Shown one piece after another: positions 2,473-51,763 of a DNA stretch of 64,000 bases (position 1 is the first letter of the stretch; each line of letters opens with the position of its first letter). The position numbers were made by a program, and so were the translations under genes. Source of the stretch: Intestinibaculum porci (GTDB taxonomy: Bacteria > Bacillota_I > Bacilli_A > Erysipelotrichales > Coprobacillaceae). The notes beneath the pieces were generated by a model. The model saw only the letters and a program-made list of their open reading frames with translations. It ran no database searches and was not told where the DNA came from. The stretch is from positions 2,046,001 through 2,110,000 of the forward strand of contig NZ_AP019309.1 in the NCBI RefSeq assembly GCF_003925875.1. Direction: 5' to 3'.

Positions 2473-4261
2473 ATGAGGAATAATACGTTCTGCCGACTCC
2501 TGCTTTATAAGCGCGGAGTCGCACATAGACCTTCTTGCTTGTCGTATAAGCAATCGTCGAGGACGTTTTCAAGCGCGACACTTTGATTGTTTTCGTCTTT
2601 TTATTAAAGGCTTTGCTTTGTGAAAGCTGTAAAGTGACCCCGCTGCCTAGTGTTTTGGCCCATGAAACTTTTACTTTATTTTTCTTAGCTTTGATGCTTT
2701 TAATTTTTGAAGCACGTGGCGCTCTATCCGTCTTTTCATCATAGAGACGACCAATAGCAACTAAATTTGAATTGACCGAAGTGCCCTGAGCCACGCAGCC
2801 GCCTTCATCCCCGTAATAAGGACCACTCGCTCCTAATGATGCCCCTGAAGAAACATATAACTCCACATGGGTAATGTTTTTATAACGACCATTCTTCTTT
2901 GAAGAATAGAATAAAAGATCGCCTGGTTTTAAAGCATCAATACGGCTTTTCGTGGGCGCTGATAAACGTTTCTTCTTACTTAAGAAGCGCGCTTCTTCGG
3001 CGGCGGTTGGCGGATAATACTTTGATCCTAAGGTGAAGCCAGCCTGTTTATACACCCGCCAAACATAACTTGAACAATCCACATAACGTTTTTGTGTTCT
3101 CTTTGGCTGAGAGTAGTGACGTTTCTGATCATAGATCTTAAAAGCCTGTTTCATGATATTGTAGGTTGTATCATTAACGCACCAGAAATCACGGACAAAG
3201 CTGGCATTATCACCGGTAATCATCGTTGATAACTTACCATAATCATTGGCGGTGACAACATTCTGATCAAAAGTTAAGGCATCATTTGAAGTGCCGCTCA
3301 CATCAACAGTTGTCAAACCGCTAAAGCGAAGCGGATTGATCGTTTTTGACATACCCTTCTTTAAGATCGTATCTCTTAAAGAAGCGGGAATCGGATGCGT
3401 AATCTTCATCTTCGCCGTTAACAGTTTGCCATCAACATAAGCATAAAGATCTGCATCTAAGTTCTTATACACGCGGAAGTTCCCTTCTTCGTCTAAAATG
3501 ACATTGGGATTACTCGTCCCATAAATAACTCTTTCAGCCCCTTCGCTGCTGGCTCCTTCCATTTGGAGCGTGCCGTAATTAGCTTCATAAAACTGAATCG
3601 CATAAAGTACGTCATGCAGCTGCGGATTTGTGACGGTCAGATTCATCGTATGGGTTTCCACCACATTTCCGCCAACAATGACATGACATGTCACACTTTG
3701 ACCACTTGCATCAGTTGCTGTTATAACCGCCTGACCAATACTTATAGCTGTCATTTGTCCCGCATTTACCTTAACAATGTTTTCATCAGATGATGACCAA
3801 GTAACGGTTTTATTGGCTTTTAAAGTCACCGTATCATTGGGCATCATAACGACGCTGCTGAGATTTAAAGCAAACGGTGCATCCGTGTCTTCACGATAAC
3901 TGCTATTTGGTGTCTGTGATGTTGCAAGGGGCTGATAAATTGTCTGCGTTAAAGTAACATCCCCAACGCTAACCCCTTTGACATCCACATCTTTCGCTGA
4001 TGGATCTGATAAAGTGACATCATCATTGCTAGCCTGCCAGGCATAGGCATAACCATCATCATCTTTTTCAATGCCTTGGACATGAATGGTCCCATCGATC
4101 GCCACACCAGCGCCTTCTTCATCGACATCATAAGTGCTTGCGGTTTTTTGATTGGTACTAAAACCGCTCACCCATTTCGTGCCTGCCCCATGAACCGGTC
4201 CGATATTAAGACCAAACATTAAAGACAAGACAATAAAAAAACCTATCCATTTCTTTCTCAC
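2447..4261 (-). CDS. Secreted Ig-like / NlpC-P60-like cell wall protein
   Basis: A 604-residue exported protein with a signal peptide (residues 1-26, hydrophobic core IGFFIVLSLMFGLNIG ending VHGAG). Residues about 110-200 look like a bacterial Ig-like (BIG2) repeat (VVMMPNDTVTLKANKTVTWSS...). Residues about 385-510 carry an NlpC/P60-like peptidase: Cys near 395 in VDCSSYVWRVYKQAG, LKPGDLLFY, and His near 465 in THVELYVSSG. The last 75 residues form a lysine-rich, Fn3-like segment. The GTG start at 4261 has CAGGAGGG at good spacing. The likely role is cleavage of peptide stems in peptidoglycan; the substrate is unknown. No terminator is seen between this gene and the tyrS promoter. Confidence 0.8.
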   Translation of the reverse strand: MRKKWIGFFIVLSLMFGLNIGPVHGAGTKWVSGFSTNQKTASTYDVDEEGAGVAIDGTIHVQGIEKDDDGYAYAWQASNDDVTLSDPSAKDVDVKGVSVGDVTLTQTIYQPLATSQTPNSSYREDTDAPFALNLSSVVMMPNDTVTLKANKTVTWSSSDENIVKVNAGQMTAISIGQAVITATDASGQSVTCHVIVGGNVVETHTMNLTVTNPQLHDVLYAIQFYEANYGTLQMEGASSEGAERVIYGTSNPNVILDEEGNFRVYKNLDADLYAYVDGKLLTAKMKITHPIPASLRDTILKKGMSKTINPLRFSGLTTVDVSGTSNDALTFDQNVVTANDYGKLSTMITGDNASFVRDFWCVNDTTYNIMKQAFKIYDQKRHYSQPKRTQKRYVDCSSYVWRVYKQAGFTLGSKYYPPTAAEEARFLSKKKRLSAPTKSRIDALKPGDLLFYSSKKNGRYKNITHVELYVSSGASLGASGPYYGDEGGCVAQGTSVNSNLVAIGRLYDEKTDRAPRASKIKSIKAKKNKVKVSWAKTLGSGVTLQLSQSKAFNKKTKTIKVSRLKTSSTIAYTTSKKVYVRLRAYKAGVGRTYYSSWSSVRRAK

Positions 4262-4348
4262 AATAATTCCCTCCTGAGGAGATATTATATCTTATGTGAC
4301 CAGAAATTTTTAGGTTTTCTTGCGATTTATTAAAGAATGTTTAATGTA

Positions 4349-4699
4349 TTAACGGGTTTTCGGATAAATACATGGCACCACTTCACTAAATTCATAGCTA
4401 TGCCAGGCTTCATCATTGTAGGCACAATGATGTTCCCGTAAGGCCATATGGGTAAAGACATAGTTCCGCATTTCTACGGATGTCGGCTGTTTGACATTTT
4501 TGAGATTGTAATCACTGAAATAGAAATTCAATTCCGTAACCATTTTTTCCGGCTCTTTCACCCAGTATTCGAGATTGACATATTCCGGGGTAAAACGGAC
4601 TTTGACATAGTTATGCGATTCATCGATCGTTTTAAGAACATCCTGAATCAAAGCATTGCCATCATAACGACGATTCCGTAAACGTTCTAATAAACTCAA
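4349..4699 (-). CDS. Unknown 116-aa protein coupled to the ClC channel
   Basis: I do not recognise this protein. It is soluble, mixed alpha/beta in appearance, and rich in aromatic residues and His (TPEYVNLEYWVKEPEKM, HMALREHHCAYNDEAWHSYE). It has no signal peptide or membrane segment. Its ATG overlaps the ClC stop as ATGA (4696-4699), so translation is probably coupled to the channel. A role linked to the channel is inference from position only. Confidence 0.6.
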   Translation of the reverse strand: MSLLERLRNRRYDGNALIQDVLKTIDESHNYVKVRFTPEYVNLEYWVKEPEKMVTELNFYFSDYNLKNVKQPTSVEMRNYVFTHMALREHHCAYNDEAWHSYEFSEVVPCIYPKTR

Positions 4700-6003
4700 T
4701 CCAGATCACCTCGATCCCCAGTATGATAAGTATTAGGCGACGCATCGATACGTGAGGCATTCAGTTTTGAATAAATGATGCGCTGACTCGAATAAAGTCC
4801 TGAATAGCCAGAGAAAATGTAACAGATGATGCAGCAAAGGGCGAAATAGAGGATGCCATCACCGCCGAAAACTTCTACCGCTAAAAAGACCGGCGCTAGA
4901 AACGAGTTCGTAGCGGCGCCAAAGACACCGACCATCCCTAAAGCGGCGCCAAAGCCAGCGGGAATACCTAGTAATTTCCCCATCAGGCAGCCAAATGTTG
5001 CACCGATAAAGAAGGAAGGAACAACTTCTCCGCCTTTATAGCCCGCTTCCAGGGTAATGCTGGTAAATAATATCTTCCAGAAAAAAGCGGCGGGATGGAC
5101 ATGCCCCTTCATCGCTTCCCCGATGACATTCATCCCCGCACCATTATAATCCGTCGTTTTTAAAAGCGTCGTTAAGGCGATGATCAGACAGCCGCCGACA
5201 ATAATACGGATATAATGATTTTTTATATAACGACCATATAAATAACGCCCTAAATAGAGCATCTTAATAAAGAAGACAGAAATGATGGCACAGGCTAAAG
5301 ATAAAATGATGACCCGAACACTCATGAGGGAGTGAAAAGCTGGAATGTGCAACGGAAAGCGCACGGCTGTCGCGCCTAAACGCAATGAGAGATCACAGGC
5401 TAAGATACTAGCGATTAAGCCGGGGAAAATCACCATATAGGAAATGGAGCCAACATTGATCATCATCGTCCCAAAGGCGGCTGCCGCGACGGGCGTTCCA
5501 AATAACGCCGAGAAGAAGGCTGCCATCCCGATACGGGTAATGATCCCCATTTGTTTTTTATTGAGTTTAAAGAGACGGCCAACACCATTGGCTAAATCGC
5601 CGCCAATCTGCAAAGCTGCCCCTTCACGGCCGGCAGAGCCGCCACATAAATGCGTTAAAACGGTGCCGATAAAGATAGCTGGAATAAGTAAGAAAGGTAA
5701 TTTTTCCCCTTCTCTGGCCGCATCAATAATGTCATTAGTGCCTTTGCCAGATACTTTAAAGCTGTGATACATAAAGACAGTTACAATCCCGGCAATCGGT
5801 AAAAAGTACAATAACCATGGATGCGCCATTCTTAAAGTGGTGACATAAGTGACGCTTTGCGCAAATAGTGAGCCGACCACGCCGCAGACCACGCCGACCA
5901 CTAAGGAAATCGCTAGCCAGCGAAAACCTTCGATAATATAATAGTGAATCCGATGTTCATAGGTATCGGTTGTTTCTTTTAAATATTCTAATATTTCATG
6001 CAT
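4696..6003 (-). CDS. ClC-family anion channel/antiporter, probably fluoride type
   Basis: A polytopic membrane protein of 435 residues with the ClC gating signature GSAGREGAALQIGG near residues 121-134; the Glu of GREG is the external gate. The late motif KGGEVVPSFFIGATFG resembles the fluoride/proton antiporter branch (CLC-F). The usual chloride-coordinating GSGIP is replaced by GKGTND, which also fits that branch. The ATG at 6003 is preceded by AAAGGGGAA. A longer frame from a TTG at 6036 lacks a suitable binding site. I saw no fluoride riboswitch in the short upstream region. Chloride transport remains the alternative. Confidence 0.85.
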   Translation of the reverse strand: MHEILEYLKETTDTYEHRIHYYIIEGFRWLAISLVVGVVCGVVGSLFAQSVTYVTTLRMAHPWLLYFLPIAGIVTVFMYHSFKVSGKGTNDIIDAAREGEKLPFLLIPAIFIGTVLTHLCGGSAGREGAALQIGGDLANGVGRLFKLNKKQMGIITRIGMAAFFSALFGTPVAAAAFGTMMINVGSISYMVIFPGLIASILACDLSLRLGATAVRFPLHIPAFHSLMSVRVIILSLACAIISVFFIKMLYLGRYLYGRYIKNHYIRIIVGGCLIIALTTLLKTTDYNGAGMNVIGEAMKGHVHPAAFFWKILFTSITLEAGYKGGEVVPSFFIGATFGCLMGKLLGIPAGFGAALGMVGVFGAATNSFLAPVFLAVEVFGGDGILYFALCCIICYIFSGYSGLYSSQRIIYSKLNASRIDASPNTYHTGDRGDLD

Positions 6004-6069
6004 AATGATTCCCCTTTGTCTCCTTATTATACTCAATTATGTTAAAATTTACATTAAGGAATCAAACAA

Positions 6070-6097
6070 AATTAAAAAACGCCGAGAATCGGCGTTA
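6070..6097 (-). terminator. Terminator after ccpA
   Basis: AACGCCGA, a short loop and TCGGCGTT followed by TTTTTAATTTT on the minus strand. It overlaps the ccpA stop codon. Confidence 0.85.
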
Positions 6098-7096
6098 CTT
6101 GGTTGAATTTCTTTTGATCAAATGAGTTGAGACAATAACTTTATGTTCAGTGATTTCTTCCCCATTTAACATTTTCGTTAATAAACGAATGGCCATAGCA
6201 CCAAGTTCATAGACTGGCACATGAATCGTCGTTAAAGCCGGACGAGACATAATGGAATAGCTGGTATTCATCATCCCGATGACTTCCATATCATCAGGAA
6301 TGGCAATGCCATTATCCTGAGCCCCATTGACAACCGCTACAGCTTCTTTATCATAACCGTTTAAGACAAGCTGATGACGGTGATCTTTGAAATAATTTTG
6401 GAAGAATGGATAACTCTTTTCATAATGTGTTGAAGTAGAGATAATCCGCTCATCACCAAAAGTGAGACCATGGGCCGCAAAGGCTTCTTTAATGCCATCT
6501 GCAAACTCATCTAAGCGCACTAAATTCTGACGTGGTTTCACAAAAATGATATCATCAATACCACGATCAAGATAATCATTGGTGATTTCTTTAGAAATAG
6601 ACTTCGCATCAACGGAAATAGAACATAAGTTATCATCTTCTACTTCATAGCCGATCACAACAGTTGGAACATTGTATTTTTTCATCATTTCAATTTCATT
6701 ATCCACATTGTCGCTGTTGAATAATACGACCCCATCAGCACGTGATTTGATGACTTTTTCTAAAACGCTATTAACGGGATTGCCATCCCCAATTTCTTCG
6801 GTTGTGTAAATCGAGATATTGTAATCGAGTGTCCGCGCAGTATCACCGATCCCTCCAATCATATCTTTCACATGAGCGAATAATGACTCCGGAAAGACAA
6901 TGGCAATGGATGTTGTTTTAGAAGTCGCCAATCCACGCGCAATCTGGTTAGGTTTAAAGTCTAATTTCTTAATGGCGTCAAGGACGCGCTCTCTGGTGGC
7001 TGGTTTAACAACGTTTGAACCGTTAATGACTCGCGATACTGTCGCTAAGGATACCCCAGCTTCCTCAGCAACATCATAGATTGTTGTCTTCTTCAT
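6095..7096 (-). CDS. ccpA: LacI-family regulator, catabolite control protein CcpA
   Basis: A 333-residue LacI/GalR regulator. The N-terminal helix-turn-helix TIYDVAEEAGVSLATVSRVI is followed by the hinge helix NQIARGLATSKT, which is CcpA-like. The rest is a periplasmic-binding-like core (SIAIVFPESLFAHVKDM...). In Firmicutes CcpA with HPr-Ser-P binds cre sites and controls carbon metabolism. The ATG at 7096 has AGGAGAAG upstream; an extension to 7117 is not needed. It is the third gene after DUF948 and ytxH genes, an order close to that around Bacillus ccpA. A cre-like site overlaps the operon promoter, so autoregulation is likely. Confidence 0.88.
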   Translation of the reverse strand: MKKTTIYDVAEEAGVSLATVSRVINGSNVVKPATRERVLDAIKKLDFKPNQIARGLATSKTTSIAIVFPESLFAHVKDMIGGIGDTARTLDYNISIYTTEEIGDGNPVNSVLEKVIKSRADGVVLFNSDNVDNEIEMMKKYNVPTVVIGYEVEDDNLCSISVDAKSISKEITNDYLDRGIDDIIFVKPRQNLVRLDEFADGIKEAFAAHGLTFGDERIISTSTHYEKSYPFFQNYFKDHRHQLVLNGYDKEAVAVVNGAQDNGIAIPDDMEVIGMMNTSYSIMSRPALTTIHVPVYELGAMAIRLLTKMLNGEEITEHKVIVSTHLIKRNSTK

Positions 7097-7106
7097 ATGT
7101 CTTCTC

Positions 7107-7568
7107 CTACTTATCAAATTCGTTAATGATTTCGTCTAATTCGTCTTCTACTTCATCGATCTGCTCATCGACATGGCTATCTGGAACAATGCCCTGATCA
7201 TCCTGCTTTTTCAGGTTATCAAGTAAAGCATTTAACTGATCGATAACTTTCGCAACGCCAGCTGCGACTTTGTCATAAGAATCAGAATCTTTGACTTTTT
7301 CTAACAGGTCTTCGGCTTTTTTCTGCAGCTCTTCGATTTTTTCTTTGGTCGAATCTTTGAATGCGTCACGATCAAATTCATCGGCAGATTTTTTCATTTT
7401 CTCAATCGTTTCCCCTAAGATCGCTTCCACGTCTTCCTTGGTGAGACCTTTCATCTTCTCGCATTTTTCTTTCAAATCTTCCCGCATTTCACTGCCCTTT
7501 TTCGGAGCGAGTAAAACACCGGCAATGGCGCCAATCGTCACGCCCGCTAAAAACTTACCTAAATTCAT
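7107..7568 (-). CDS. YtxH-like membrane-anchored protein
   Basis: A 153-residue protein with one N-terminal membrane segment (GKFLAGVTIGAIAGVLLAP, residues 3-21). A long, highly charged coiled-coil region follows (KGSEMREDLKEKCEKMKG...). This is the layout of YtxH-domain proteins, which are of uncertain function and are sometimes linked to the stress response. The ATG at 7568 follows AGAGG by eight bases. The stop lies 10 bases before the ccpA start, so the two are co-transcribed. Confidence 0.8.
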   Translation of the reverse strand: MNLGKFLAGVTIGAIAGVLLAPKKGSEMREDLKEKCEKMKGLTKEDVEAILGETIEKMKKSADEFDRDAFKDSTKEKIEELQKKAEDLLEKVKDSDSYDKVAAGVAKVIDQLNALLDNLKKQDDQGIVPDSHVDEQIDEVEDELDEIINEFDK

Positions 7569-7589
7569 GTGCAATACCTCTCTTTTCTT

Positions 7590-7892
7590 TTATTTTTTCT
7601 TGAAAAATGATTTCAGCCCAACCAGTGTCCCTAGTAAGCCGGCATTATTACTCTTCTTTTTCTTAGTAAAAATGTTGTTAACGAATTCCACAGGGGCATT
7701 CAGCTGATCCATTTTATAGTTCACATCGTCAACCGTTTTATTCACTTTCGTCACGGTGATATCGATATCTTGTGATAAATGACTGACATCCTTCAATGTC
7801 TGCGCTGTCTTTAAGAGCGTAATTCCTAAACAGATCAAGGCAAAAGCCCCCGCTAGAATCAGAAACGCAAGACATATATCAAATATACTCAT
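7590..7892 (-). CDS. DUF948-family small membrane protein (YtxG-like)
   Basis: A 100-residue protein with a membrane segment at residues about 3-28 (IFDICLAFLILAGAFALICLGI) followed by the heptad-rich DUF948 pattern (VSHLSQDIDITVTKVNKTVD) and a basic C-terminus ending KSFFKKK. The ATG at 7892 is preceded by AGGAGATATGAC. The longer frame to 7988 reads through the promoter and is rejected. It is the first gene of the operon with the ytxH-like gene and ccpA. The family function is unknown. Confidence 0.8.
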   Translation of the reverse strand: MSIFDICLAFLILAGAFALICLGITLLKTAQTLKDVSHLSQDIDITVTKVNKTVDDVNYKMDQLNAPVEFVNNIFTKKKKSNNAGLLGTLVGLKSFFKKK

Positions 7893-7917
7893 GTCATATC
7901 TCCTCTCAATTACTTCT

Positions 7918-7946
7918 ATTATTGCACAAAATTCAAGCGCTTTCAA
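7918..7946 (-). promoter_or_regulatory. Promoter with cre-like operator for the DUF948-ytxH-ccpA operon
   Basis: TTGAAA (7946-7941), a 17-base spacer and AATAAT (7923-7918). A cre-like palindrome TTGAAAGCGCTTGAA spans 7946-7932, overlapping the -35 box, with one departure from the usual degenerate consensus. Binding of CcpA here would block RNA polymerase. Confidence 0.65.
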
Positions 7947-7971
7947 GCTAACTTTACAATATTTAAAATAA

Positions 7972-7998
7972 AGTTTCTCGGAGAACATCCGAGAAACT
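7972..7998 (-). terminator. Terminator after murC
   Basis: AGTTTCTCGGA, loop TGT, TCCGAGAAACT then TTATTTT on the minus strand, between murC and the next promoter. Confidence 0.75.
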
Positions 7999-26757: not shown

Positions 26758-26995
26758 AAACGTCTCCTGCCTTACGCAAGAGACGAATATAAACGTATTC
26801 GCGGTACCACTCTTCTTGATATCAATCGATATCCACTCTCTCCTTAAGGCGGAACACCGCAATCCCTACTCATTTCAGGATCGCCTTTCGGAAGTACGTT
26901 TCATTTTCCTCGTATGTCTCAGTCTCCCACCATCACTGATTCGCTTGCCACCGGTTGAAAAATTACTTTTCTTCGTCATCAAGTTTTTATTTATG
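26758..26995 (-). promoter_or_regulatory. T-box leader of the ABC transporter operon, specifier probably CGU (Arg)
   Basis: The T-box core AGAGTGGTACCGCG reads on the minus strand near 26801-26814. It is followed by the terminator CGTCTC...GAGACG (26785-26761) and a run of T. On the 3' side of stem I the codon before ACTT, the position that aligns with TAC in the tyrS leader, is CGT (26898-26896). The overlapping ACG (Thr) is the main alternative. The leader fills most of the gene-free stretch 26720-27098. Confidence 0.85.
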
Positions 26996-27611: not shown

Positions 27612-29309
27612 TTATGATAAATCATCAATCGCTTTCGCTTCAACTAAAAGCGGCGATAACTCTTCATGCATCAGTTTACGTCTTGGATACTTCTCACAGT
27701 AATGACTGACTAAGTATTCAATCTGATCCGTACCGCCTTTTAAATCAATCATCGCTCTTAAAATACCAGCTAACTCTTTATAGTGCTGCCGCGTACCAGC
27801 TTTTTTCACCATATTATTCGCAATGCGTTTATAAGCATTGACTAATACTTCCGGATGTTCTTTTTTCAAATAGCCGCGCGCCTTATTAACCTCGGTTAAA
27901 TCACTCGTGCTATTGATCATCTTAATGAGGGCATCATATTCCCGATCAATAGCTAGTAAGTAAGCCTTCGCCTCGGGATCATCGATCTGATCTAAATATT
28001 TCATGCGACTTTGCGGCCAGTATTTTTTGGAAGAATTGAGTTTAATCTCCCGATAGATTTCAAAGTGATGATCACCATACATAGTAAACATCTGATCCAA
28101 AGATCTTAAGTATTCTTTACGCATATTGGCTTTCTTATATAATTCTTTTAAGAAATAGTAATCATAATAAACCGAGTGGGGATCTTTTTCAAAAGGAATC
28201 TGTTCTTTGATATAGTTCATCAGCCATTTGGTTTCATCATGGGTGGCACAGTATTCGGTAAAAAAACGACGAATATTGATATGTTTCCAGTTCTTCATCG
28301 CTAAAATACGAATGTCTTTCTTATTGTTGGCGCGAATCAGCAAGCGTAAGTAAAATAACACCCACTGCTCGTAGTTTTTCTCTTCTTTAGGTTCCATCGC
28401 TTTTTTGCCATCAAAGGAGTCGATGACCTGCTTAGCAAGCGCGAGTGACCGCGCAAAATAACGATCTTCAAAAGCATGATTAAGTAAGTAGAAATAATCA
28501 TCTCTAAAGATGCTGGCATCTTTTTCCATCGCATGAGCTGTAATTAACTGATACACTTCATCCTGATTCTCAATCCCGCCGATGGCTCTTTTATAATAAA
28601 CGTTAAGATCACGAATAAAGTTTTTAATCGTATTGCTGGCATGTTCATAATAGAAGCCATCTAGCTGACTGTACATATGATCAATCACTTCAAAAGCATG
28701 TAAGTAAGCATGCGCTTCTAAGAAGTTTTCAAGATGAGGCTCTAAATGCTGGCGGATTTCCCCAAAAAAGTAATCGGCGATCTGATGGGACAAATAGATC
28801 ACCTGGGAGTTTTCGTACTTTGGATTATCGTCACGATAGCCCTGCATAATGGCATCTATTTCCTCATTGACTTTCTCCACCTGAGCGCGGGTTTTCGCTT
28901 CCTGACGTTCATCATAACGCACGAGTTTTTTAAAACGTTTGAGCAATTCCCCATCGCCGTTAAGCAGGATTGATAAAAAGTCTTTCATTTCCTGTTCATT
29001 TACGAAGTTTAATAAATCCTCGACATCATGGGGATCAACACGCATTTCATCTTCTAAGCGATCTTCGACGGCAAATAACAAGGCGGCTTCATGGGCACAG
29101 GCATGGCCTTCACGGCCGCGTTCACATTCGCAGTCCATCGCCGTAATATTATTACCCATATGTTTAATCATGACATGATCAACATCACCATCAAGAACAT
29201 CTGCCTCAATCAGATGATCAGCCATTTTAATATGAATAACATTGCCAGCTTCATAAATTTTATAGCCGGCATCAAGTTCTCGGGCATCAAAATTGTTTTC
29301 CCAAGCCAT
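27612..29309 (-). CDS. SWIM zinc-finger protein
   Basis: A 565-residue protein with a SWIM-type zinc finger near residues 58-75: Cys-x-Cys in DCECERG and Cys-x-His in HACAHEAAL. The remaining 480 residues are helical, rich in Tyr, Asp and Lys, and may form repeats (for example IKEQIPFEKDPHSVYYDYYF). SWIM domains bind nucleic acid or proteins; in bacteria such proteins often accompany SNF2 helicases, but none is present here. The ATG at 29309 follows AAAGAGGTG. It heads an operon with two small genes. Confidence 0.75.
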   Translation of the reverse strand: MAWENNFDARELDAGYKIYEAGNVIHIKMADHLIEADVLDGDVDHVMIKHMGNNITAMDCECERGREGHACAHEAALLFAVEDRLEDEMRVDPHDVEDLLNFVNEQEMKDFLSILLNGDGELLKRFKKLVRYDERQEAKTRAQVEKVNEEIDAIMQGYRDDNPKYENSQVIYLSHQIADYFFGEIRQHLEPHLENFLEAHAYLHAFEVIDHMYSQLDGFYYEHASNTIKNFIRDLNVYYKRAIGGIENQDEVYQLITAHAMEKDASIFRDDYFYLLNHAFEDRYFARSLALAKQVIDSFDGKKAMEPKEEKNYEQWVLFYLRLLIRANNKKDIRILAMKNWKHINIRRFFTEYCATHDETKWLMNYIKEQIPFEKDPHSVYYDYYFLKELYKKANMRKEYLRSLDQMFTMYGDHHFEIYREIKLNSSKKYWPQSRMKYLDQIDDPEAKAYLLAIDREYDALIKMINSTSDLTEVNKARGYLKKEHPEVLVNAYKRIANNMVKKAGTRQHYKELAGILRAMIDLKGGTDQIEYLVSHYCEKYPRRKLMHEELSPLLVEAKAIDDLS

Positions 29310-29444
29310 TCATTTCACCTCTTTACAATATAAAAAAAGATTTCTAATACAGATATGTTTGTAAATCATAGGAATGTATAGAGAGCAAATTTAAGAATCT
29401 CTTCTCAAATCTATTTTCATTATATGATAAAACATTAAAAAATA

Positions 29445-29617
29445 CAATAAAAAGAGATGTACCCACAAGAAGTCGCTCCTAACGTTTGGCACATTCACCT
29501 AGGGACAAGAAACTTTGTGAAACGGGTAGGGACCAAGGTATGTTTCACGGTGCTTTTAGGGAATGATTGTGATAAGGATGTGCCTATATAAATCAATGAC
29601 TTCTTCACATCTCTTGA
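29445..29617 (-). ncRNA. Structured RNA candidate with 6S-like hairpin architecture
   Basis: A gene-free stretch of 385 bases (29310-29694) holds one long foldable unit. Closing stem: 29452-29460 pairs with 29607-29615 (9 bp), then 29467-29474 with 29598-29605 (8 bp). Next comes a symmetric 13/13 internal loop (29475-29487 and 29585-29597). The next stem pairs 29488-29494 with 29578-29584, and an apical stem pairs 29517-29523 with 29542-29548. A rod of about 165 nt with a central bubble is the shape of 6S RNA. On the minus strand a TATACT box lies six bases before the stem and a T-rich run follows it. The plus strand cannot be excluded, and no sequence family was confirmed. Confidence 0.55.
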
Positions 29618-29634
29618 GGCTAGTATAACGTTGT

Positions 29635-29656
29635 GATGTGGCAAAGATGTGGCAAA
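29635..29656. repeat. 11-bp tandem repeat beside the structured RNA
   Basis: Two exact copies of GATGTGGCAAA (29635-29645 and 29646-29656), upstream of the TATACT box of the minus-strand RNA candidate. It may be a regulator site or chance. Confidence 0.8.
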
Positions 29657-29661
29657 AATGT

Positions 29662-29688
29662 AAAAAGTGCACCATTTTTCAGGTGCAC
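29662..29688 (-). terminator. Terminator after htpG
   Basis: GTGCACC, loop TGAAAAAT, GGTGCAC then TTTTTAC on the minus strand just after the htpG stop. Confidence 0.8.
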
Positions 29689-29694
29689 CATCAA

Positions 29695-31596
29695 TTATTT
29701 ACTTGCGCTAATCATTAAAGAGGTAATTTTATTAGAGAATTCAACTGGATCTTCGACTGGGAAACCTTCAATTAATAAAGCTTCATCAAAGAGGATTGAG
29801 GCATAGTCTTTCACCTGATCAGGATTCTTTTCATAAACGGACTTTAAGGCATTAAACAATTCATGTTTAGGGTTAATTTCCAAAATACGACCCGCTTTCA
29901 CCTGCTGAGCTTCGGCATTAGGCATCGCATTGAGGACTTTTTCCATTTCGAAGGATACCCCTTCGCTTGAAGAGAGGCAGACTGGATGTGATTTTAAACG
30001 TGAGGTTAACTTCACATCAACAACTTTATCGCCTAAAGCATCTTTAATTGTCTCTAATAATGACTTGTTATCCGTAGATTCCTGTTCCAGTTCTTTCTTT
30101 TCTTCCTCAGATTCGATATTTAAATCACCCTGAGAAACATTCTTGAATGGTTTTTCTTTATAATCACGCATCATCTGTAAGCAGAATTCATCCACATCCT
30201 GAGTTAAGTAAAGGATATCATAACCTTTATCTTTCACTGTTTCTACCTGTGGCAATAAATCGATCTTTTCAACGGTTTCCCCGCTGGCAAAATAGATTTC
30301 TTTCTGATCTGCTGGCATTTTGTCAACGTATTCTGCTAATGTGATATAATCTTTTTCTTTGGCTGAATAGAACATTAATAAATCCTGCAGCTTATCTTTT
30401 AACATACCATAGGAATTATAAATACCAAACTTCAGCTGAATGCCGAAGTTCTTCCAGAACTTCTTGTAACCTTCGCGGTCATTTTTTAACATATCCGTTA
30501 ATTCTTTGGTAATACGTTTTTCAATACGATCCGCAATGAGCTTCATGCTGCGATCATTTTGTAACATTTCACGAGAGATATTTAAGTTTAAATCCTGAGA
30601 ATCGACTAACCCACGAACGAAACGATAATGTTCTGGGACTAAATCTTTCGCTTTATCCATAATGAAGACACCACGGGAATAAAGCTGTAAGCCTCTTTCA
30701 TAATCACTTGAGAAGTAATTCATTGGCACTTTTGATGGAATGAATAATAAGGAATCATAAGTGACCGCCCCTTCAACACGGTTATGCATGACGCGCTGTG
30801 GATTTTCGAAGTCATTGAATTTTGATTTATAGAAATCATTGTATTCTTCTTCCGTGATATCTTTCTTATTACGTTTCCAGAGTGGCACCATACTATTTAA
30901 AGTTTTGGTTTCCGTCACATCTTCGTATTCATCACTGTCTTCTTTCTTCTTAGAGACTGTCATATCCATCTTAATTGGATAATGGATGTAATCTGAATAT
31001 TTCTTTACCAGTCTTTCAATTTCATACTGATCTAAATACTGATCATAATTTTCATCATCCGTATTAGGTTTTAAGTGTAAAACAATTTTTGTGCCATGAT
31101 GATCTAAGCTAGAAGGCAAGATTTCATAACCATCAGAGGTATCAGAAACCCAGACGTAAGCCTGATCATCACCATATTTCTTAGAGAAAACTTCAACTTT
31201 ATCAGCGACCATGAAAGCAGAATAGAAACCTACCCCAAACTGACCGATGATATCGACATCGCTCTTGCCATCTTCAATGGCCTGTTTGAATTCATTAGAG
31301 CCAGAGTTTGCGATGGTCCCTAAATGTTCATCAAGTTCCGCTTCATTCATCCCAATCCCATGATCTTCAATGGTAATGGTACGTTTTTCTTTATCTGTAT
31401 CGATACGGATATCCATGTCTTCTCTTGAGAAGCCCTGAATATTGTCCTTTAAAGCTTTATAGTACATCTTATCTGATGCATCGCTGGCATTGGAAATTAA
31501 CTCTCTCAAAAAGATTTCTTTATGTGTATAGATTGAATTAATCATTAAATCTAACAAACGTTTAGATTCTGATTTAAACTGTTTTTTATCACTCAT
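29695..31596 (-). CDS. htpG: Chaperone HtpG (Hsp90)
   Basis: ATP-dependent chaperone of 633 residues. The GHKL ATPase motifs are present: ELISNASDASDKMYY near residue 33, IEDHGIGMNEAEL near 76, GSNEFKQAI, and the lid/glycine motif IGQFGVGFYSAFMVAD. The middle domain shows GVFIMDKAKDLVPEHYRFVRG and NISREMLQNDR. The ATG at 31596 follows AAAGGAGATATCAAG. Two CIRCE-like operators flank the promoter, implying HrcA repression and heat-shock induction. Confidence 0.97.
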   Translation of the reverse strand: MSDKKQFKSESKRLLDLMINSIYTHKEIFLRELISNASDASDKMYYKALKDNIQGFSREDMDIRIDTDKEKRTITIEDHGIGMNEAELDEHLGTIANSGSNEFKQAIEDGKSDVDIIGQFGVGFYSAFMVADKVEVFSKKYGDDQAYVWVSDTSDGYEILPSSLDHHGTKIVLHLKPNTDDENYDQYLDQYEIERLVKKYSDYIHYPIKMDMTVSKKKEDSDEYEDVTETKTLNSMVPLWKRNKKDITEEEYNDFYKSKFNDFENPQRVMHNRVEGAVTYDSLLFIPSKVPMNYFSSDYERGLQLYSRGVFIMDKAKDLVPEHYRFVRGLVDSQDLNLNISREMLQNDRSMKLIADRIEKRITKELTDMLKNDREGYKKFWKNFGIQLKFGIYNSYGMLKDKLQDLLMFYSAKEKDYITLAEYVDKMPADQKEIYFASGETVEKIDLLPQVETVKDKGYDILYLTQDVDEFCLQMMRDYKEKPFKNVSQGDLNIESEEEKKELEQESTDNKSLLETIKDALGDKVVDVKLTSRLKSHPVCLSSSEGVSFEMEKVLNAMPNAEAQQVKAGRILEINPKHELFNALKSVYEKNPDQVKDYASILFDEALLIEGFPVEDPVEFSNKITSLMISASK

Positions 31597-48339: not shown

Positions 48340-48414
48340 GCCGCATTCGTATAACGGCTATTACATCTGCTTGCCATGCAGAAGATGCCGGTTCGATTCC
48401 GGCATGTGGCTCCA
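48340..48414 (+). tRNA. tRNA-Gly(GCC), copy 1
   Basis: A 75-base cloverleaf with encoded CCA. The acceptor stem GCCGCAT pairs with ATGTGGC. The anticodon stem is TCTGC/GCAGA around TTGCCAT (anticodon GCC), the T arm is GCCGG-TTCGATT-CCGGC, and the discriminator U is as expected for tRNA-Gly. It has its own promoter and terminator. Identical in sequence to the copies at 50207 and 51689. Confidence 0.96.
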
Positions 48415-50206: not shown

Positions 50207-50281
50207 GCCGCATTCGTATAACGGCTATTACATCTGCTTGCCATGCAGAAGATGCCGGTTCGATTCCGGCATGTGGCTCCA
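50207..50281 (+). tRNA. tRNA-Gly(GCC), copy 2
   Basis: Identical over all 75 bases to the copy at 48340. The -10 box and the start region AGGAGCACTAAGAAAT are also shared, while the promoter spacer and the downstream terminator differ. Confidence 0.96.
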
Positions 50282-51688: not shown

Positions 51689-51763
51689 GCCGCATTCGTA
51701 TAACGGCTATTACATCTGCTTGCCATGCAGAAGATGCCGGTTCGATTCCGGCATGTGGCTCCA
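51689..51763 (+). tRNA. tRNA-Gly(GCC), copy 3
   Basis: Identical over all 75 bases to the copies at 48340 and 50207; the bases before it (ACTGAGAAAT) differ by one from the other two. Confidence 0.96.

Follow-up and report, generated by a model that had tools for sequence, protein, structure and literature searches.

A candidate small RNA with a rod-shaped fold and three looped UCCCUA motifs upstream of a SWIM-like gene in Intestinibaculum porci

Introduction

UCCC is assumed to be a characteristic motif of small RNAs (sRNAs) that block Shine-Dalgarno (SD) regions in low-GC bacteria, and SD-binding UCCC loops have been described for RNAIII, RsaE, SprD, FsrA, and LhrC (PMC4132741). In Listeria, LhrC requires LisRK and has three CU-rich sites that are redundant (PMC4132741), and in streptococci CiaR drives the csRNAs from a TTTAAG-N5-TTTAAG repeat with 11-bp spacing (PMC8186281). 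A second kind of RNA relevant here is 6S RNA (RF00013), which occurs in two copies in some Firmicutes (PMC8414754). Ms1 RNA of Actinobacteria is structurally related to 6S RNA and binds the RNA polymerase core (PMC9130861).

The RNA predicted in this study, from the Intestinibaculum porci genome, resembles LhrC in having three redundant C-rich UCCC sites and a low-GC Gram-positive host, and further in its two-component control, predicted here, and its link to the cell envelope (PMC4132741). However, LhrC exists in five copies and is built of two hairpins with a terminator loop, whereas the predicted RNA is single-copy and forms one continuous rod, and the two have no sequence relation (no Rfam match). 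With the csRNAs, it has in common an 11-bp direct repeat at an intergenic sRNA promoter (PMC8186281), but the repeat here is TTTGCC-N5-TTTGCC, the RNAs are unrelated in sequence, and the regulator is putative rather than an established CiaR. The likeness of its proposed mechanism to these systems is one of analogy, not homology. The rod shares size, closing stem, and central bubble with 6S RNA, yet it differs in having no covariance-model match, no conserved blocks, and no conservation in the family. As for Ms1, described for Actinobacteria, no Rfam family matched the rod above its gathering score.

Results

A rod is predicted between htpG and a SWIM-like gene

The window, a stretch of 64,000 nucleotides of contig NZ_AP019309.1, contains a 385-bp gap between htpG (29695-31596, minus strand), whose identity is confirmed by NCBIfam, and a SWIM-like gene (27612-29309, minus strand). 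The latter gave no match to Pfam or NCBIfam at E ≤ 0.001, and its protein is 65% identical to that of "uncultured Erysipelotrichaceae bacterium isolate RUG246." Within this gap, segment 29449-29617 folds into a single rod on either strand.

From this fold and comparison with shuffles, we predict a minus-strand sRNA of ~167 nt (29449-29615; 5′ AAGAGAUGUG ... ACAUCUCUUUUU 3′), its 5′ boundary taken from a -10 box and its 3′ boundary from a U-tract. The RNA is closed by a 9-bp outer stem (5′ arm, 29607-29615; 3′ arm, 29452-29460) and a second stem of 8 bp (5′ arm, 29598-29605; 3′ arm, 29467-29474); the arms of both are 100% complementary and lie where a sequence-only reading of this DNA had located them. 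Pairing probabilities leave a symmetric central bubble unpaired, with GAUUUAUAUA on the 5′ side (29585-29594) and AAACGUUAGG on the 3′ side (29478-29487). Beyond the bubble, the MFE structure has a 7-bp stem (GGCACAU, 29578-29584, with AUGUGCC, 29488-29494) and an apical 7-bp stem (GUGAAAC, 29542-29548, with GUUUCAC, 29517-29523). The apical stem had been drawn previously on the plus strand; it is recovered in the minus-strand MFE structure, but the plus-strand MFE structure differs at the top, being branched and without it.

Fold energies were compared with those of dinucleotide shuffles. The plus strand had an MFE of -46.4 kcal/mol (z -2.15; 5 of 200 shuffles equally good) and the minus strand -40.1 (z -1.84; 12 of 200), and the exact 167-nt segment gave z-scores of -2.06 (minus) and -2.31 (plus). 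With z about -2 on either strand, the energy excess of the rod is modest. Rarer than this excess was its end-to-end closure, since 26 pairs linking the outer 45 nt were found in only 6 of 1000 shuffles.

We also considered a small protein encoded in the rod. Pfam returned nothing for the 44-residue plus-strand ORF or the 37-residue minus-strand ORF, PHROG gave them only weak matches, the best at E 0.09, and the candidate was rejected.

Promoter and 3′ end signals favor the minus strand

Upstream of the predicted 5′ end is the -10 box TATACT (29622-29627, minus strand), which ranks second among the -10 hexamers scored by PWM across 29260-29760. It lies 6 nt from the predicted +1, A29615, the base with which the closing stem begins. 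No good -35 box was found 17 bp from TATACT, as is expected for an activator-dependent promoter. At the other end, the rod closes with a terminator-like U-tract, TTTTT (29449-29453), which has no counterpart at the plus-strand 3′ end. The stem preceding this tract pairs over a far longer range than terminator hairpins normally do, and a compact hairpin is lacking. Promoter, stem, and U-tract agree on the minus strand, and as sequence signals they favor it. Both the strand assignment and the reading of the motifs described below were made post hoc, with the sequence already seen.

The predicted unit is set apart from its neighbors. The htpG intrinsic terminator (29666-29689, minus strand) lies upstream of the predicted sRNA promoter, and directly past the sRNA U-tract the downstream SWIM-like gene has its own promoter (TTGTAT-17-TATAAT, 29419-29447, minus strand), the top-scoring site in 29260-29760 with a PWM score of 9.8. 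Placed between the two, the rod does not obviously belong to either gene as leader or trailer.

Three UCCCUA motifs lie in loops of the predicted minus-strand RNA

The plus strand carries TAGGGA three times, starting at 29500, 29527, and 29557. The sequence-only reading had noted these copies correctly and left them unexplained; on the minus strand they become UCCCUA, and all three fall in loops. Motif 1 (29557-29562) is in an internal loop with a mean unpaired probability of 0.82, motif 2 (29527-29532) in the apical loop with 0.83, and motif 3 (29500-29505) in an internal loop with 0.79, compared to an overall mean of 0.46 for the minus-strand rod. As a set, they exceed randomly drawn 6-mer triples in unpaired probability (P about 0.01). 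Any 6-mer was present three times in about 5% of shuffles (99/2000), whereas none of the 2000 had three copies of TCCCTA. The repeats had looked unexplained because the less likely strand had been worked on.

Candidate targets were sought by a duplex scan, carried out without a shuffled energy control, that covered the 64-kb window and the 17 kb surrounding the dlt-like operon described below, and none stood out. Short exact complements to the RNA likewise gave no convincing start-site target genome-wide. The stretch around UCCCUA site 3 (AGGGACAAGAAACTT-type) has an exact complement of 15 nt at C1:2175115 and C1:257609, within a repeated ORF (about 1870 nt from stop to stop) whose two copies appear to be identical. 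Lying deep inside this ORF, the complement is probably due to chance.

The predicted promoter carries a direct repeat shared with a dlt-like operon

In the -35 region upstream of TATACT is an 11-bp direct repeat, TTTGCCACATC-TTTGCCACATC (29635-29656, minus strand), a candidate activator operator. The pattern of this repeat, an 11-bp gap, and the -10 box has two zero-mismatch sites in the genome, here and at C1:91016-91050, with identical spacing from repeat to -10 box. The remaining genome matches to the repeat pattern have 2 mismatches and are about as many as those of a reversed control, and a family-wide scan of the 42 other genomes revealed only two sites, each with 1 mismatch. At both zero-mismatch sites, a direct repeat of ~11 bp replaces the -35 box at a fixed distance from the -10 box, as at OmpR-type promoters. 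The OmpR-type DNA-binding domain has 10 matches in the genome.

Three genes follow the site at C1:91016-91050. They encode an AMP ligase resembling DltA, a decarboxylase dependent on PLP, and an MBOAT protein resembling DltB, none of which reaches the curated cut-off that NCBIfam sets for the family named. By inspection, the 5′ leader of the operon measures about 17 nt. Orthologous or related dlt-like genes of nine relatives did not have the same repeat upstream, so that this control is specific to the lineage at best. The operon (C1 about 85.6-91.0 kb; 2626-7994 in locus coordinates) has the decarboxylase, of diaminopimelate/ornithine type, as an inserted gene, and possibly serves to modify the envelope with an unusual amino acid or amine.

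The rod is found in a single species

No homologue of the rod was found by blastn in 60 relatives. A single-sequence covariance model of the rod recovered 1 of 43 family genomes, namely this genome alone. Among the 316 genomes of the order it recovered no homologue either, as the lone other match (E 0.015, in apparent coding DNA) is within chance for that number of genomes. An exact-pattern scan of viral contigs gave 52 matches, and none fit the covariance model. A SWIM protein search with a contig scan for congeners found one close relative and none with the rod, and in the syntenic gap of the one congener both flanking genes are present and the rod is absent.

This distribution, along with the modest fold z-scores, would fit a non-functional inverted-repeat remnant, such as a worn MITE or the end of a mobile element, or chance pairing in the gap. 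Its absence from the congener, however, fits the fast turnover of sRNAs equally well as meaningless sequence. Moreover, the genome holds no second copy of the rod, no target-site duplication is evident by eye, and phage and plasmid collections searched with blastn had no match outside the AT-rich flank. The mutual fit of promoter, stem, and U-tract also argues against a remnant, a reading that we consider unlikely.

The rod is not a recognizable 6S RNA

The sequence-only reading had proposed a 6S-like RNA and an Rfam search for its confirmation. At E ≤ 10, region 29310-29700 gave no match to RF00013; two Rfam matches were listed for the gap, both far below their gathering scores. The whole genome contained only two RF00013 loci, both outside the rod. 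One, at C1:2887681-2887789 (minus strand), scored 47.0 bits, above the gathering score, and the other, at C1:1584143-1584304 (plus strand), was full length at 36.2 bits, below it. Just downstream of the latter is a small ORF that we take to be DUF896-like. A CCCACCUG...ACAUAACAGGG block is common to both of these 6S candidates, and the rod lacks it. Across the family, 6S RNA was found in 40 of 43 genomes and the rod in 1 of 43. With no RF00013 match, no conserved block, and no conservation in the family, the rod is not a recognizable 6S RNA. The earlier proposal that the htpG-SWIM gap holds a gene for a structured RNA is supported by the fold, the fitting promoter, and the U-tract, but its identification as 6S fails on the Rfam and block comparisons; a 6S gene elsewhere, one part of what had been named as counting against it, is present as two matches, one of them above gathering.

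The rod might still be a third, highly diverged 6S-type RNA that would bind RNA polymerase through the central bubble. It has the 6S layout of closing stem, central bubble, and apical stem, which alone is not diagnostic; its size of about 167 nt fits; and the order on the minus strand resembles that of 6S RNA, with the closing stem followed by the A/U-rich GAUUUAUAUA, then GG, and the upper arm. Two 6S copies are possible in Firmicutes (PMC8414754), but this genome already has two candidates, as does the congener, and neither the shared block nor the family-wide conservation of 6S RNA extends to the rod. We judge this reading improbable.

Two RF00013 matches each were found in this genome and in the compared congener, with no more than one in every other family genome, possibly a genus-specific 6S duplication. 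Other structured RNAs annotated in the window are T-box leaders on the minus strand at 2189-2388 and 26776-26988, the second of which immediately precedes an operon for an amino-acid ABC transporter (26779-24499), and three plus-strand tRNA-Gly(GCC) genes with identical Rfam scores (48340-48414, 50207-50281, and 51689-51763), which span 3.5 kb with unrelated protein genes between the copies.

Plus-strand and leader readings

The plus-strand RNA folded in the sequence-only reading has the more stable structure (-46.4) and a TACAAT box at 29443-29448. Its promoter, however, scores 4.55 versus 9.8 for the SWIM promoter on the opposite strand, its 3′ end is without a U-tract, and its TAGGGA motifs are not preferentially unpaired (P 0.11 against random 6-mer triples), and we give it little credence. 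A cis-acting leader (attenuator or riboswitch) of the SWIM-like gene, to which the strand, the position directly upstream, and the terminal U-tract would be suited, is very improbable, as this gene has its own strong promoter past the rod and is present (65% identical) in the congener, where the rod is absent.

Discussion

The rod is probably a regulatory sRNA of about 167 nt, linked to envelope stress and encoded on the strand opposite to that folded in the earlier reading. A fuller account, to which we give about an even chance of being right, is a stand-alone, activator-controlled, trans-acting sRNA on the minus strand, probably with an OmpR-type regulator and with multiple UCCC sites for SD pairing. 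The basis for this mechanism is that the predicted RNA joins the UCCC sites with the 11-bp repeat. Transcription would start at about 29615 from the TATACT promoter, which has no usable -35 box and would be switched on by a response regulator, likely of OmpR type, binding the 11-bp direct repeat. The sRNA would then be co-activated with the dlt-like cell-envelope operon carrying the same repeat, and its three looped UCCCUA motifs may pair with G-rich SD regions and so keep the target mRNAs from being translated, a mode of working we liken to that of Listeria LhrC or the streptococcal csRNAs. Unlikely, though conceivable, is a bolder version in which the RNA represents a new sRNA family, a species-restricted scaffold, co-induced with envelope-modification genes, that unites three SD-pairing loops with a 6S-like rod.

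A literature search on this bacterial group found no paper on 6S or small RNAs. The example indicates that rods need to be read on both strands, since it was the choice of strand that made a familiar type of motif out of repeats that had lacked an explanation. If the proposed mechanism is true, it would give the family to which this bacterium belongs an sRNA regulon that is specific and open to testing, and it would show that the pairing of an envelope-type regulator with a multi-UCCC sRNA may be a solution reached anew beyond Listeria and the streptococci.
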